Assembly (NCBI GenBank): GCA_020059605.1
Contig: JAGVBT010000141.1
Coordinates: 1-58,806, forward strand
Origin: Deltaproteobacteria bacterium
Lineage (GTDB): Bacteria > Desulfobacterota > BSN033 > UBA1163
Direction: 5' to 3'
DNA: 58,806 bases
Position numbers and translations under genes: made by a program. The notes beneath the pieces were generated by a model that did not search any database, was not told where the DNA came from, and saw only the letters and a list, made by a program, of their open reading frames with translations. Below, in pieces: positions 48,059 through 53,596 of the stretch. How positions within the stretch are numbered: the stretch's first letter is position 1; every line of letters starts with the position of its first letter.

Positions 48059-48439
48059 CTAATCTGTTTTTTCTCGGCTTAGGGGAAGCAAACGAACTCT
48101 TGATTTTTCCTCATCCACCGAAATCAAGGCCCCTTGCCGAAGATTCTCGGCAAACTTATGAAGGATGTTGAGGAGCAAATCCTTTGCATGGTGAGGAGAG
48201 ATGTCTTGTGTTCTGATTTGGATAACGCTTGGACCCTCGGCTTCAGTGACAGCAAGGATTGCTCCGAAGTCGAGGTCATGGGTGAACAGCAGATAACCAT
48301 TTGTTTTAGTCCATAACAAAATCTCGCGATCAGAAGCATTCAACGAGCCGACGGTTGACCAATGGGAGGCGATATGTCCCGCTTCTTCCAACACTGACAC
48401 CCGTGAAGGGGAAAGATTCATATCGATTAGAATCTTCAT
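48059..48439 (-). CDS. DUF5615 PIN-like protein, probable toxin
   Basis: 126 aa. MKILIDMNLSPSRVSVLEEA and the later TNGYLLFTHDLDFGAIL with TQDISP are typical of DUF5615, a Mut7-C/PIN-fold family that pairs with DUF433 proteins. The aspartates at residues 6 and near 55-57 would form the nuclease centre. It overlaps the DUF433 gene by 4 nt, as expected for a toxin-antitoxin operon. Toxicity has to be assumed from family context. Confidence 0.85.
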   Translation of the reverse strand: MKILIDMNLSPSRVSVLEEAGHIASHWSTVGSLNASDREILLWTKTNGYLLFTHDLDFGAILAVTEAEGPSVIQIRTQDISPHHAKDLLLNILHKFAENLRQGALISVDEEKSRVRLLPLSREKTD

Positions 48440-48666
48440 GCAGTAATGACCGGAACGTCTATCTCCTCAACCCGCCATGCGGCGTAGGCAAGGGCTTGGT
48501 CGATGTCTTCCGGCTCCAGGTATGGGTATAACTTCAGAATCTCATCCTTGGTCCGTCCGGATGCCATGAGACCAACAATTGTCCCCGCCGTGACACGGAG
48601 CCCGCGAATGCATGGCTTGCCGCCCATGACGCCCGAATTAAAAGTAATTCGGTTGAGAGTTTTCAT
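48436..48666 (-). CDS. DUF433 protein, probable antitoxin
   Basis: 76 aa from the ATG at 48666, with GGAGG 5 nt upstream; the open frame to 48804 has no ribosome site. ITFNSGVMGGKPCIRGLRVT is the DUF433 signature and TKDEILKLYPYLEPEDI completes the helix-turn-helix-like fold. It likely represses the operon and neutralises the DUF5615 protein encoded directly downstream. Confidence 0.88.
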   Translation of the reverse strand: MKTLNRITFNSGVMGGKPCIRGLRVTAGTIVGLMASGRTKDEILKLYPYLEPEDIDQALAYAAWRVEEIDVPVITA

Positions 48667-48860
48667 ACCTGCCTCCACATCTATGGAATAGGATAGCACG
48701 AAATGAACCCGAACTCCATATCTTAATTTCTCCCCTCCCCTTGCAGTCCCCTCTTCCTTCAAAGATTCTTTTAATCTTAAACCCCGTTGATCATTACCAT
48801 TCATTTATTCTCTACTACCTATCTCCTCATCTCGCCATCTTTTTTTTAGAACCGGCCAGA

Positions 48861-48941: not shown

Positions 48942-49412
48942 CTATGCGGCCATTTCCTCCATCAAGAGGTCATCCTTGATATGGATACAGCCAATCACGC
49001 TCTGGGCCGCAGGGCAGGAAGTCAGGTAGGAAGAGAAGGCTTCCCTGGCCTCCCGTGATTTTCCTGAAGGCACCTTCAAATGGTATTTGACTCTAATCCG
49101 GGTGATCTTCAGAACATTGCTGACATTTTCGATATCCCCTTCAACTTCCGCCTGGTAAAGGTCTTCCGGGGTGGGAATCTGTTGTTCGGCCAGGAACCTG
49201 GCCAGGGTCCCCATCATTCAGGCTGCTGTGGCCGCGACAATATGGTCAAGCGTGGCCGCGTGTTCTTTTTCCGGTTCTATTTTATAGAACCTCTTGATCC
49301 CCCCGTGAACCCCATAATAGATGGGCTCATCGAATCCCTCGACCATGGCTCTTCTTGTCGGACCTTTTTCCCTTACGATTCTGATTCGTGACGTGTGAAC
49401 AATCTCTCCCAT
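48942..49412 (-). CDS. OsmC/Ohr-family redox protein, candidate selenoprotein with in-frame UGA
   Basis: 156 codons counting one in-frame TGA at 49220-49218. AGGAGG precedes the ATG at 49412. Upstream of the TGA lie YYGVHGGIKRFYKIEPEKEH and ATLDHIVAATAA; downstream MMGTLARFLAEQQI continues in the same frame without a gap. In OsmC proteins the peroxidatic cysteine sits exactly here (consensus AAxxAC-x-x-x-TL), so the UGA replaces that cysteine. The second cysteine (LTSCPAAQS) is present. A SECIS-like hairpin follows the UGA. OsmC-like selenoproteins are known. The alternative is a pseudogene with a nonsense mutation, but both halves look well conserved. Confidence 0.8.
49187..49204 (-). promoter_or_regulatory. 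Candidate bacterial SECIS element downstream of the UGA codon
   Basis: In the mRNA, UGGCCA pairs with UGGCCG (one U-G) and leaves the apical loop GGUUCC. The loop starts 20 nt after the UGA, within the spacing known for bacterial SECIS elements, and has G at its first two positions as required. Confidence 0.65.
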
Positions 49413-49518
49413 ACGGCCTCCTTGTTTTTCATGCTTAATGAATTGTGGACCTGCTCTTTACCAAATGCCACCGATCTCCCCTTCGCTCCTATGGATAGCA
49501 TTTTGGAAACTCCCAATA

Positions 49519-49857
49519 TTAAAGAAGCTCCCAATAAGATTGGCTACGCACTGCGTAGCCTTTTGGACCAGCAATTAATTGGGGATATTCGAAGTAGAAC
49601 TTCCTGAAAAACTTCAGATTTTCCAGATTGTAACCAGATCCATACTTGGAGCTCAGCTGCGCTGATAGATCACGAATGAGTCCCTCGCCGTAACCCGCTC
49701 TTCGTTGTCCTTTCTGTTCCTCCTCAACGATCTCCTGCCCGATCAGCCAGTTGGCGACCACCTGTGCGGTGTTTACCGAACGTGCGGCCACCCGCCTGGC
49801 CGATTCCAGAATCTGCCGGACACGTTCATATAATTCCATCTTTCTCTTTCCCGACAT
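49519..49857 (-). pseudogene. Truncated DUF1016 (YhcG-like) N-terminal fragment
   Basis: 112 aa, whereas DUF1016/PDDEXK proteins are about 340 aa. The conserved N-terminal part is intact: VNTAQVVANWLIGQEIVEEE, RRAGYGEGLIRDLSAQLSSK, GSGYNLENLKFFRKFYFEYP. It then departs into an unrelated tail (GPKGYAVRSQSYWELL) containing an 8-bp hairpin GGCTACGC-act-GCGTAGCC (49542-49560). The nuclease domain is missing. It looks like a remnant of a restriction-linked gene. Confidence 0.8.
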
Positions 49858-49989
49858 AGACTCCCTTACCTAACCAGGAGGCATCCCCGTTCTCCTGAAG
49901 TGCTATGGTTAACCCATAATGTGAACCCGTCCCCGATTTCTGACGATATAATCAGTAAAAATTGTAGACCTGATACTCTATCTTCCAAA

Positions 49990-50481
49990 CTACTTTTCTC
50001 CCACATTACGGCAGATCTCGCTTACAAGAGAATCTGAAATCCAAAGTCCGGCATTTTGAATCTTCACAAGAGTCTCCCGAACCGAACTGATGATTCCCCT
50101 TTTTTTACCAAGAAGGACTATTCCGAGGGTCCCAATACAATGGCACTGGAGGGATGTAGCACAACGCCTTGCTTCCCGGTCATCCATAACCGCAAAATAT
50201 TCTGGGTTCTTCAAGGCAAATGAAAGGACGGCGCTTTCCCCATCTCCCAAATCCCATGACGCTACACGAGGATCGATAGTAATATTACCGATTTGCTGTA
50301 TCCAGTTATTAGAAATTAAGGTTTGAGCAGAAAAATCCATTGCTCCCTTTGCCATGACTTCCTTGACCACAGCATCAGGAACAATGATGTCCTCGAACAA
50401 TGTAGGAAGCAAATCTGTGAGGCCGCTTTTAAACAAGCAGATAAGCGGAGAAGCATTGACGACAACACGATTAATCGGCAT
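49990..50481 (-). CDS. DUF3368 PIN-domain protein, probable toxin
   Basis: 163 aa. VVVNASPLICLFKSGLTDLL carries the first PIN residue as Asn in place of the common Asp, as usual in DUF3368. LGDGESAVLSFALKN and FAVMDDREARRCATSL supply further acidic residues, and CIGTLGIVLLGKKRGII is the family's C-terminal part. It overlaps the UPF0175 gene by 11 nt. Such pairs are toxin-antitoxin modules with an RNase toxin. Confidence 0.88.
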   Translation of the reverse strand: MPINRVVVNASPLICLFKSGLTDLLPTLFEDIIVPDAVVKEVMAKGAMDFSAQTLISNNWIQQIGNITIDPRVASWDLGDGESAVLSFALKNPEYFAVMDDREARRCATSLQCHCIGTLGIVLLGKKRGIISSVRETLVKIQNAGLWISDSLVSEICRNVGEK

Positions 50482-50728
50482 TGCGCACGTCTTCCATTAT
50501 TTCATTGGCTGAGGACTGGAAGGGGGAGACTTCAAAGCGAGCCAGCGAAAATATGAAATCGGCCCGTGTGAGGCCAGCGATTTCTGCAGCCTTTTCTTGC
50601 GATACAACCCCCATTTCATACCATTTAACGGCTGCAGCGAGGCGCATCTCGGCTGCGAATTCAGAGGGGCTCTTGCGAATTGCCGAAAACACAGTTTCAG
50701 GCATGTCGAACTTTATAGCAACGGACAT
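50471..50728 (-). CDS. UPF0175 protein, probable antitoxin
   Basis: 85 aa. FDMPETVFSAIRKSPSEFAA and EMRLAAAVKWYEMGVVSQEK with AAEIAGLTRADFIFSLARF match UPF0175, a helix-turn-helix family found with DUF3368. AGGAGG lies upstream of the ATG. It probably neutralises the downstream PIN protein and regulates the operon. Confidence 0.88.
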   Translation of the reverse strand: MSVAIKFDMPETVFSAIRKSPSEFAAEMRLAAAVKWYEMGVVSQEKAAEIAGLTRADFIFSLARFEVSPFQSSANEIMEDVRNAD

Positions 50729-51176: not shown

Positions 51177-52343
51177 TTACCCTCGGGCATTAACAACATT
51201 CGCCACTACGTCGGCCACATGTCCACTGAATTCACTGAGCCCACCCCATCCTGCCTCAGATGCTTCCTTTGAACCGGGGTCCAGACCGGAAATATCATGA
51301 GTGCAACCTGTTTTCTGATCGAAATAATACACACGCGCAATTTTTCCAAGGACCGCATCTGCCATTTCCTTCATAGGATCTGTTTTTCGTGCATTGAAGA
51401 GATCAAGAATCCTGACCGAAGGCGCTTGATGGTCCCGTATTACCTTTAATGCCCATACGACATCGAGGACATGGGGCGAATGCGTTGAAAGACAAACTCG
51501 GTAGCCTCTTGCAAGAAGATCCAGGATCAACAGCAAAACGGCAGAAATAGCGTTCGGATGTAAGCCGGCTTCCGGCTCTTCGATGACAACCCATTCGACG
51601 TCCTGCCGACGGGATACCTTGGTGGGAGGAAGAAGCCAGTAGAATCCCATCAATAGAGGGACAAACTCTCGCTGTCCGGCAGACCACACCATAAAAGGCA
51701 ATGTAGAATCAGCCTCTTTAGCCTTGAGAACGAGTCTTTTCTGTGAACCATAGGTGTCCACACGCAACCCAAAGCCATGAAATACCGTACGATCCAGTAT
51801 CTTTCGGAGTTCGTTCTTAAGGCGGCGAGTTTGCGGAAAAATTTCACCCCCCTCACCGCGGCCCCAACCAGTCTCCATGAGCAAGCGGATTTTTTCACTG
51901 AAATCACGGACAGAGAATGGATCGCTTGCCCCATAATCAGAAAAAGGACGCGGCCACCCTCTTCCAAGTGTTAATACTCTCTGGGCAGGAATAAAAAACA
52001 GGGATTCCTTTTTACTTCTTCTTCGACGTTGAATGAGAGTGGATAATTCAAGCGGTTCACCGTTGTATATGATAGCACTGCTGTTATCTCCAATGCGCCA
52101 TACATCATGCATTCCTTCACCGAGATAAATATCGAGAAAATGACCGATATCCTTATTCCATACCAGCCCATGTGTCCCCATCTCGTCGATCACATATCCT
52201 GTATCCAATAAAAGTCTGAGGAATTGGAGGAAAATGCTCTTTCCTGTTGCCTGGGGTCCAACAAGAACCGTAAGATCTCCGAACTCAACATCTGCGTCTT
52301 CAATCTGTCCAACATTCTTCAACTGCAATCTTGGATTATTCAT
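51177..52343 (-). CDS. AAA ATPase (RecF/OLD-like, AAA_21), probable defence ATPase
   Basis: 388 aa. LQLKNVGQIEDADVEFGDLT and the P-loop VLVGPQATGKS open an ABC-type ATPase; WSAGQREFVPLLMGFYWLLP is the signature-like segment, VVIEEPEAGLHP is Walker B and CLSTHSPHVLDV the switch region. The fold is that of overcoming-lysogenization/RecF-like ATPases frequent in phage-defence operons. No TOPRIM domain is fused; the small protein encoded after it is the only partner. AAAGGAG before the ATG is supplied by the end of a 93-bp repeat. Confidence 0.82.
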   Translation of the reverse strand: MNNPRLQLKNVGQIEDADVEFGDLTVLVGPQATGKSIFLQFLRLLLDTGYVIDEMGTHGLVWNKDIGHFLDIYLGEGMHDVWRIGDNSSAIIYNGEPLELSTLIQRRRRSKKESLFFIPAQRVLTLGRGWPRPFSDYGASDPFSVRDFSEKIRLLMETGWGRGEGGEIFPQTRRLKNELRKILDRTVFHGFGLRVDTYGSQKRLVLKAKEADSTLPFMVWSAGQREFVPLLMGFYWLLPPTKVSRRQDVEWVVIEEPEAGLHPNAISAVLLLILDLLARGYRVCLSTHSPHVLDVVWALKVIRDHQAPSVRILDLFNARKTDPMKEMADAVLGKIARVYYFDQKTGCTHDISGLDPGSKEASEAGWGGLSEFSGHVADVVANVVNARG

Positions 52344-52354
52344 AAAAACATTCT

Positions 52355-52447
52355 CCTTTGTCGCATGCTCTTCAATTGTGAAGTGCGGCGGCGAAACAAT
52401 TCGGAGGCGATATTCTTAGACAACTTAAATACGTCCCCGCCAGTCTT
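52355..52447 (-). repeat. 93-bp direct repeat, copy 1
   Basis: About 91% identical (8 substitutions, no indels) to 53241-53333. It lies immediately upstream of the ATPase gene on the - strand and contributes its ribosome-binding site. Confidence 0.85.
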
Positions 52448-52527
52448 GTGTTGTACCAGAACACCTCCAAGGCTCGATTTCAGGCCCGTGGCTAACGGCT
52501 ACCCGATCAGGCTTTTCACCTACAAGA

Positions 52528-53178
52528 CTACCCCACATATCCGCACACTCCAGTTCGAGGTGAATTAACTACAGGAAGCAGCATATCTTCACCGCATTTG
52601 TGATCCTCCGCACAGTCATCACAAAACCATCCTGCATCCTCATAAATACATTCTGTGCAGATGCGTGTGGCCAGATTATCGCAATTTGAGCATTTAATCT
52701 GGGGTGGATCATTCCTTGCAAGGATCTCCAGGTCACCCGTTTTTATATTGCTTTTAAACTCGGAAAAAACTTTTAGCATAAGTTCTGTGGTACTGCCAAA
52801 ATCATATTCATAGTTTAATCGCATTCCAGGATGCAAAACATACTCAAGTCTCTTGCTTTTTTTTATTTCTTCTCTTCCAATGCGAAAAGCGCTCATATGA
52901 CCACAACATTCGAGCCATATCTCCCTGAGAAAATGGTCCAAATCTTCAAAACGTGCATGGCTTGATACTTTAAGATGCATCCAGTATTCCGGCAGATTAT
53001 GCCCTTCTACAAGGAGATGAAAGAATTTTAGCAAAGAGGTTGACCCCTGGGTAAATTTCTCATCAATCAGGTTTTTTTCTATACATGACTTCAGATGTCT
53101 TGTCATGGCCGATTTACCAAATTCAGATTTACAAAGTGCGCATGTCCCTTTTGATGCTATTCGTGGCCTTCTTGGCAT
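52528..53178 (-). CDS. pRiA4b ORF3-like protein flanked by zinc fingers
   Basis: 216 aa; GGAG is 6 nt before the ATG. An N-terminal C2HC finger (CALCKSEFGKSAMTRHLKSC) is followed by a PRiA4_ORF3-type core: MHLKVSSHARFEDLDHFLRE, WLECCGHMSAF and LNYEYDFGSTTELMLKV. The C-terminal part has treble-clef or B-box-like cysteines (CSNCDNLATRICTEC, FCDDCAEDHKCG). PRiA4_ORF3 proteins are common on mobile elements with unknown function. Both fingers suggest nucleic-acid or protein binding. Confidence 0.75.
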   Translation of the reverse strand: MPRRPRIASKGTCALCKSEFGKSAMTRHLKSCIEKNLIDEKFTQGSTSLLKFFHLLVEGHNLPEYWMHLKVSSHARFEDLDHFLREIWLECCGHMSAFRIGREEIKKSKRLEYVLHPGMRLNYEYDFGSTTELMLKVFSEFKSNIKTGDLEILARNDPPQIKCSNCDNLATRICTECIYEDAGWFCDDCAEDHKCGEDMLLPVVNSPRTGVCGYVG

Positions 53179-53240: not shown

Positions 53241-53333
53241 CCTTTGTCGCATGCTCTTCAATTGGGAGGTTCGGCGGCGAAACAATTCGGAGGCAATATT
53301 CTTAAATAACTTAAGTACGTCCCCACCAGTCTT
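53241..53333 (-). repeat. 93-bp direct repeat, copy 2
   Basis: Pairs with 52355-52447. It sits upstream of the zinc-finger protein gene on the - strand. Confidence 0.85.
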
Positions 53334-53596
53334 TTACATCTTGCGCCTCACTCCTTACGATTGGGTAATAACGCTATGCGCCATGCCCTTGGCGATCTTT
53401 TGTTAGGAGGGCCAACTTTTTTATGGATGATACCAAATTGAAATATCCCAAGCCTGACCCCGTAGCCAAACCAAAATCTTGGTAAATGTTTGATGAGGTG
53501 GTTTCCCTTTCAGGCGATCTGTTCAGCATTCACCGTATTCCCACTCCTTTTTTTCTTTAAGGTCGCGAAGGGTTTCGCCAAAAAATCAGGGCCAAC

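Follow-up and report, generated by a model that had tools for sequence, protein, structure and literature searches.

An OsmC-family gene with an in-frame UGA at the peroxidatic-cysteine position is very probably a selenoprotein gene of a separate subfamily

When an OsmC-family gene is broken by a single in-frame TGA, is it a selenoprotein gene, a pair of small genes, or a damaged one? This question is raised by a 58,806-nucleotide stretch of DNA from a Deltaproteobacteria bacterium, hereafter the window, for which an earlier note made from the sequence alone had proposed that two short ORFs form one OsmC-type protein with selenocysteine (Sec) at its reactive position. Re-deriving the frame and coordinates gave the same picture: the minus-strand ORFs 49412-49218 and 49217-48942 share one frame and are joined by a single TGA (Table 1). 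Readthrough of the UGA yields a protein of 156 residues, and the Pfam OsmC model (PF02566) matches this read-through protein with 41 bits (gathering threshold 27.5) over residues 56-145, the UGA lying inside the match.

An arrangement of this kind might also represent a pair of independent small proteins, or a code change by which the UGA is read as another amino acid, and the ATG ATG found directly 3' of the UGA would speak for such a view. However, the OsmC match spans the UGA, and no Shine-Dalgarno-like site was found upstream of the ATG that follows it; AAGGAGG precedes the first ATG. As for a code change, the only exchange seen at the catalytic-Cys column is that of TGA and TGC, and the use of TGA as the terminal stop of the same gene in four relatives (L004, L005, L018, and L020) shows that UGA does not just serve as a sense codon. 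We therefore regard this explanation as extremely improbable.

Table 1. Positions in the window of the OsmC-family gene and of its parts
Feature	Position	Strand	Evidence
OsmC-family gene, very probably for a selenoprotein, UGA read through (156 aa)	48942-49412	-	ORFs, translation, PF02566, relatives
In-frame UGA, predicted Sec codon, residue 65, peroxidatic-Cys column	49218-49220	-	translation, relatives, profile alignment
SECIS-like hairpin, bases 14-19 counted from the UGA being pairable with 26-31 (five core pairs and U14:G31), apical loop GGUUCC at 20-25	49187-49204	-	pairing, comparison
Cys133 codon, presumed resolving cysteine, invariant CP motif	49014-49016	-	alignments, profile search
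AAGGAGGC, Shine-Dalgarno-like, 5' of the first ATG	49416-49423	-	sequence

We determined what relatives carry at the UGA column in two sets of genomes, which overlap in part (e.g., L088 and G237 are taken to be from one genome). The first was a sample from the window's phylum, 395 genomes drawn evenly out of a larger group, searched with the read-through protein. Matches at an E-value of 1e-8 or better were found in 37 genomes and comprised 39 rows, including fragments and one distant homologue. Exactly one stop, a TGA, was present in 36 of the 39 rows, i.e., in 35 of the 37 matching genomes; the other rows were two pieces from G393 without residues 62-107 and a 44-residue fragment from G192 with a TAA. 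The position of the codon was itself read in 30 loci and in G025, G105, G285, and G337, two fragments from G047 being left out. The second set consisted of relatives in GTDB named genomes, for which the best 80 of 169 were kept and read. At column 65, 78 of these 80 have TGA and two have TGC, with no further stop in the matched stretch and at identities down to ~61%. The claim that the UGA stands at the reactive-cysteine position is thus borne out by TGA or Cys in all 80 relatives read, and a sense codon other than Cys, which the earlier note had named as a sign of nonsense mutation, occurs in none of them. The deposited labels of the carriers, which include metagenome-assembled genomes (MAGs), are Deltaproteobacteria-type, Nitrospiraceae, Acidobacteria, Actinobacteria, Methylomirabilota, and others, with many Syntrophaceae-type MAGs among the matches in the named-genome search. 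A scan of viral contigs revealed no relative of the gene.

These counts bear on the possibility that the window gene is a pseudogene, that is, a Cys-type OsmC gene with a TGC-to-TGA nonsense mutation or a sequencing error. Such a reading could draw on the patchy occurrence in the genus (one of six other same-genus genomes carries the gene), on the degenerate copies elsewhere (the G192 fragment with its TAA and the G393 pieces lacking residues 62-107), and on our not finding selC in the window assembly. For the family it is nonetheless contradicted, because an independent mutation or error in each relative cannot explain a TGA that is shared by 78 of the best 80 relatives with no other stop, and the codons of the stem discussed below are constrained. 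We consider a pseudogene highly improbable.

The two genes with TGC come from Syntrophaceae bog_1110 (L129) and Syntrophaceae fen_1165 (L134). In a tree of 82 rows they form one clade (support 100/99) whose sister is the Sec gene L103 (99/81), within a supported group that contains Sec genes. A change from Sec to Cys is the likely direction for this pair as judged from the tree, and only likely since the root is a midpoint root on the very long branch to G025. Cys forms are rare among the sequences compared and probably derived. More broadly, the subfamily could well be near-obligate for Sec, with Sec ancestral and present across many phylum labels and Cys a late and rare replacement, a view that we favor with some reserve. 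If true, selenoprotein searches that take abundant Cys homologues as their starting point would overlook a family of this kind. With so few Cys forms, the subfamily is a test case of why a peroxide-reducing site would need selenium in anaerobes, and the Cys pair inside a Sec clade provides a natural comparison. Several further OsmC-type genes were seen alongside these. In the MAG records of Syntrophaceae fen_1165, the gene occurs twice, once with Sec (L101) and once with Cys (L134), either as two paralogues or through a mixed bin. A Cys-type OsmC-like ORF lies on the minus strand ~2.3 kb past the UGA of the Sec gene in L103 (L103:5181-5582), its ORF cluster being present in three of 80 loci. 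The window genome likewise encodes a Cys-type OsmC protein without internal stops (G000:C19:13667-14011).

Bacterial SECIS elements (bSECIS) are hairpins that follow the UGA, with G at the first two loop bases and the loop 16-37 nt from the UGA. The earlier note had described a 6-bp stem with a GGUUCC loop starting at nucleotide 20 after the UGA, and we could reproduce it: U14, G15, G16, C17, C18, and A19 are pairable with U26-G31. This hairpin has the features of a bSECIS, its loop running from nucleotide 20 and opening with GG. By itself it is ordinary, with a folding energy of -12.4 kcal/mol (z -0.54) that 55 of 200 shuffled sequences equal or better. Rfam had nothing to match in a 2.5-kb stretch that includes the gene and its surroundings, at E-values up to 1. 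The support for more than chance is comparative. We assembled 110 sequences (80 from named genomes and 30 from the phylum sample), 93 of which are distinct over 138 nt; over the 42 nt after the UGA, 80 are distinct, and 78 of these have TGA. Among these 78 distinct Sec sequences, the five core pairs (15-30 to 19-26) were paired in 384 of 390 cells and complete in 74 sequences, whereas controls in which one side was shifted by 1-3 nt had 2-52% paired. In 76 of the 78, the loop begins with two G. There are a few compensating changes in the stem: pair 13-32 is C-G in 61 of the 78 sequences, U-A in eight, U-G in one, and mismatched in eight, and pair 15-30 is U-A once.

Part of the stem pairing follows from the amino acids, because the peptide is Leu-Ala-x-x-Leu-Ala. 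Under synonymous resampling, however, all five core pairs are expected in 18.7%, versus 73 of 78 named Sec genes in which they were observed. For the peptide of the window gene itself, the expected chance is 6.2%. Codon use was compared in 108 genes, 92 of them distinct including both Cys genes, which left 90 distinct Sec genes. In the latter, Leu of the stem is encoded by CTG in 90% versus 36% elsewhere, and Ala of the stem by GCC in 95% versus 44% elsewhere. In these sequences, the stem is kept beyond the demands of the protein. In both Cys genes, L129 and L134, one core pair is broken and the fold has -5.0 kcal/mol, compared to approximately -11 kcal/mol for most Sec rows. We dropped a reading of this broken pair as stem decay since core pairs are also broken in five Sec genes from the named set of 78: a single pair in L101, L102, and L167, and three pairs in L099 and in L106. 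L167 comes from Desulfacinum hydrothermale DSM 13146, the one record among the 80 whose title carries no MAG label, and its fold reaches only -6.3 kcal/mol. Damage to the hairpin in the Cys genes is therefore suggestive at most. For L099 and L106, the minimum-energy fold is a different hairpin.

Does the organism have the machinery to insert Sec? The earlier note had asked for selA, selB, selC, and selD in the same genome, and three of the four are there. In the window genome (G000), which is 93.7% complete in 167 contigs, selA (622 bits, contig C63), selB (372 bits, C123), and selD (392 bits, C150) all score above the curated cut-offs. The selD gene carries one TGA, in the segment KKAGUAAKIGP, which we take to be where SelD has its catalytic Sec or Cys, and there are no other stops in selA, selB, or selD. 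The remaining gene, selC, was not found, although each of the six other genomes of the genus that were searched has it. The absence which would have counted against selenoprotein synthesis thus applies in part, and this is the main loose end. The Rfam tRNA-Sec model did not reveal selC among the 100-150 of ~617 candidates scored in this genome. One match at the cut-off (47.0 bits) was rejected because ARAGORN identified it as a tRNA-Ser, and no tRNA-Sec was returned by ARAGORN for eight of the 18 Rfam matches. A same-genus selC used as a DNA query had no match in the window genome (best E-value 0.64), and a selC pattern that matches all six other same-genus genomes is without a match there. 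Across 29 genomes, with 100 candidates scored per genome, a tRNA-Sec was detected at an E-value of 1e-9 in 25, i.e., in 20 of 24 carriers of the gene and in five of five same-genus non-carriers; the four genomes in which this search found none (G000, G374, G337, and G077) are all carriers.

Gene order suggests a probable reason. The genes pgeF, yggU, selC, tatA, and folK stand in this sequence in the same-genus genomes G237 (L052), G045 (L056), and G319 (L057), the names of those around selC being ones that we assigned from sequence. On contig C63 of the window genome, selA is followed by pgeF and yggU and then by an RNA-binding-type gene where selC stands in the relatives, and neither ARAGORN nor Rfam detected a tRNA-Sec at this pgeF-yggU block. 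The tatA-folK stretch of L061 has only short matches in the window genome. Since tatA-folK was not found either and completeness is 93.7%, we read the lack of selC as an assembly gap: the stretch with selC, tatA, and folK is probably missing from the assembly. It might instead be that the family does use Sec while the organism of the window has lost selC, which would make the window copy a relic; that another gene follows the pgeF-yggU block, the site of selC in some same-genus genomes, is what one would then expect. Against a relic stand the presence of selA, selB, and a UGA-bearing selD without other stops, the near-complete lack of tatA-folK as well, which in an assembly of this completeness fits a stretch missing from it, and the window gene itself, which shares 87% identity with its relative from the genus and keeps every one of the five core pairs. 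A relic thus seems very unlikely, and we retain the reading of the window gene as a working selenoprotein gene. Two further observations concern tRNA genes and their surroundings. Three ~90-base tRNAs in L077, L078, and L079 (G187:C26, G045:C36, and G162:C54; positions ~1498-1593) score above the Rfam tRNA-Sec cut-off (54.9-57 bits); ARAGORN assigns them as tRNA-Cys with anticodon GCA, and the same genomes have a normal tRNA-Sec. They resemble the tRNA-Sec-like tRNA-Cys species of the literature. A segment near selC of G237 (L052:946-1126) matches many contigs of the window genome and is probably a dispersed repeat of the genus.

The protein belongs, as far as sequence and model can tell, to the OsmC superfamily, to which its PF02566 score, its predicted fold, and both redox positions point. 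The AlphaFold2 model, computed from the 39-row alignment, has a mean pLDDT of 85.3 and a pTM of 0.82, with low confidence at residues 37-45. In a Foldseek search of the PDB, 48 of the 50 matches listed, from 55 at an E-value of 0.001 or better, are named OsmC, Ohr, or osmotic/organic-peroxide proteins, and the remaining two, 1ml8 and 2ql8, are described as "structural genomics" and "putative redox protein", respectively. With an E-value of 9.9e-7, 2onf is the best match. Normalized by query length, the TM-scores are 0.41-0.57; the rmsd is 10-15, the large rmsd possibly being due to a swapped N-terminal part. A sequence search against PDB chains yielded nothing at an E-value of 0.01 and, at E-values up to 10, weak OsmC/Ohr matches among chance ones (luciferase, FADD). 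In a profile search, column 65 is aligned with the Cys of the E. coli OsmC segment "HAACFSM" and column 133 with the second Cys, in "CP", at weak E-values of 0.03-0.5. Both columns are invariant in the 29- and 39-row alignments (column 65 being UGA or Cys, written as C), in line with the claim that the resolving cysteine, Cys133, is present.

Our best explanation, to which we assign a probability of roughly 0.93, is that the window gene codes for a selenoprotein belonging to the OsmC/Ohr superfamily, in which UGA65 is read as Sec by means of a bSECIS, that it belongs to a U-M-M-G-T subfamily in which Sec is near-universal among the sequences compared, and that it likely reduces hydroperoxides. 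The selenoprotein interpretation of the earlier note is thus supported, and judging from the sequences the window gene is very probably a real selenoprotein gene whose apparent break is read through with Sec. What argues for this is the UGA/Cys column, the conservation of the stem, the superfamily, the confident predicted fold, and three of four sel genes, and the scheme that we infer from them for Sec insertion itself, for the peroxidase activity, and for the reductant would be as follows. The ribosome would read UGA65 as Sec, directed by the SECIS hairpin within the codons immediately 3' of it, and SelB with charged tRNA-Sec and GTP would deliver Sec while the hairpin is near the ribosome entry region. 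Sec65, in place of the peroxidatic cysteine, would attack the hydroperoxide, Cys133 would resolve the selenenic acid (a selenenic-acid/selenenylsulfide cycle), and a thiol or dithiol reductant would close the cycle. By analogy with OsmC and Ohr, the reduction of (organic) hydroperoxides is the most likely activity. Another chemistry on the same fold is conceivable, if a good deal less probable, such as the transformation of thiols or sulfur compounds with Sec as the nucleophile. The window protein scores well short of the cut-offs for the OsmC and OsmC_like_Se models, a YGVHGGI...ATLDH stretch is conserved in the subfamily, and no conserved neighbor gene hints at a substrate, all of which would agree with this, whereas the retention of both OsmC/Ohr redox-active positions argues for peroxide reduction. 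We know of no member of the subfamily with a tested activity.

How does the window gene relate to known families? With the NCBIfam model NF041052 (OsmC_like_Se, the UxxT form), it has in common the OsmC superfamily, a UGA at the Cys column, and a second Cys downstream. However, the window protein scores 19.7 bits against a cut-off of 95, and its motif is UMMGT, i.e., UxxG, rather than UxxT; two UGA-bearing members of NF041052 (L181 and L182) have FULLT and FUMFS. The cut-off of NF041052 is passed by proteins from four of the 395 phylum-sample genomes, two with TGA. Among the 39 members of the window family, 12 match NF041052 at an E-value of 0.01 (best 2.1e-5), and an hhalign comparison of the family with one NF041052 member gave a probability of 0.07 and no significant match. 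The Cys-type families OsmC, SACOL1771, and Ohr (TIGR03562, TIGR03563, and TIGR03561) share the fold and both cysteine positions, but the window family has Sec in place of Cys. The window protein has 20.8 bits on TIGR03562 (cut-off 85.8), and the best E-values of the 39 members on these three models are 1e-4 to 6e-3, or 1e-4 to 2e-5 on any NCBIfam model, bit scores having been taken for the window protein and E-values for the other 38 members. No NCBIfam model scores the window protein above its cut-off, and annotation therefore presumably often splits such genes in two. The distant homologue in G025 (ULTGT) is 36% identical over 151 residues and has its UGA in the same column, but falls beyond the main clade, at the end of a very long branch.

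In the accessible text of the Sargasso Sea study, an OsmC-like selenoprotein is described with a UxxT motif (PMC1088965), and in that of an ocean survey (PMC2398784) and a 2022 review (PMC9312934), a single OsmC-like selenoprotein appears, again with UxxT. The accessible part of a 2026 compendium of 119 selenoprotein families and subfamilies gives OsmC only as the UxxT form and treats the same domain with a different Sec motif as a distinct subfamily (PMC13188914). OsmC is absent from the main text of deep-Sep (PMC12013277), Kivenson 2021 (PMC8318568), and Peng 2016 (PMC5029168). We found no listing of a UMMGT-type OsmC selenoprotein in the accessible literature, and supplements or subscription papers may hold an earlier one. 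The earlier suggestion that the gene fits the established OsmC-like selenoproteins consequently holds for its being a Sec-type OsmC gene and fails for its being of the UxxT/NF041052 kind: by its sequence, we place it in a separate, so far unlisted subfamily outside NF041052. This would be a second, sequence-distinct subfamily of OsmC selenoproteins, with matches in 37 of 395 phylum-sample genomes.

The surroundings of the gene were compared in the 80 loci, using ORFs of at least 90 residues and flanks of unequal length. No conserved neighborhood was detected, the commonest neighbor cluster occurring in seven of the 80. In the window, genes with DUF433 and DUF5615 that overlap by four bases (48059-48804) lie directly downstream of the selenoprotein gene and are likely a toxin-antitoxin-type pair. 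Upstream (49519-50728), a short DUF1016_N ORF is followed by DUF3368 and UPF0175 genes, and these resemble what is left of mobile or defence-type genes. Farther along, the ORF 52528-53178 seems to have a DNA repeat on either side, because the plus-strand ORFs 52224-52568 and 53251-53406 have the peptide RRRNNSEAIFL.NL.TSPPV in common.
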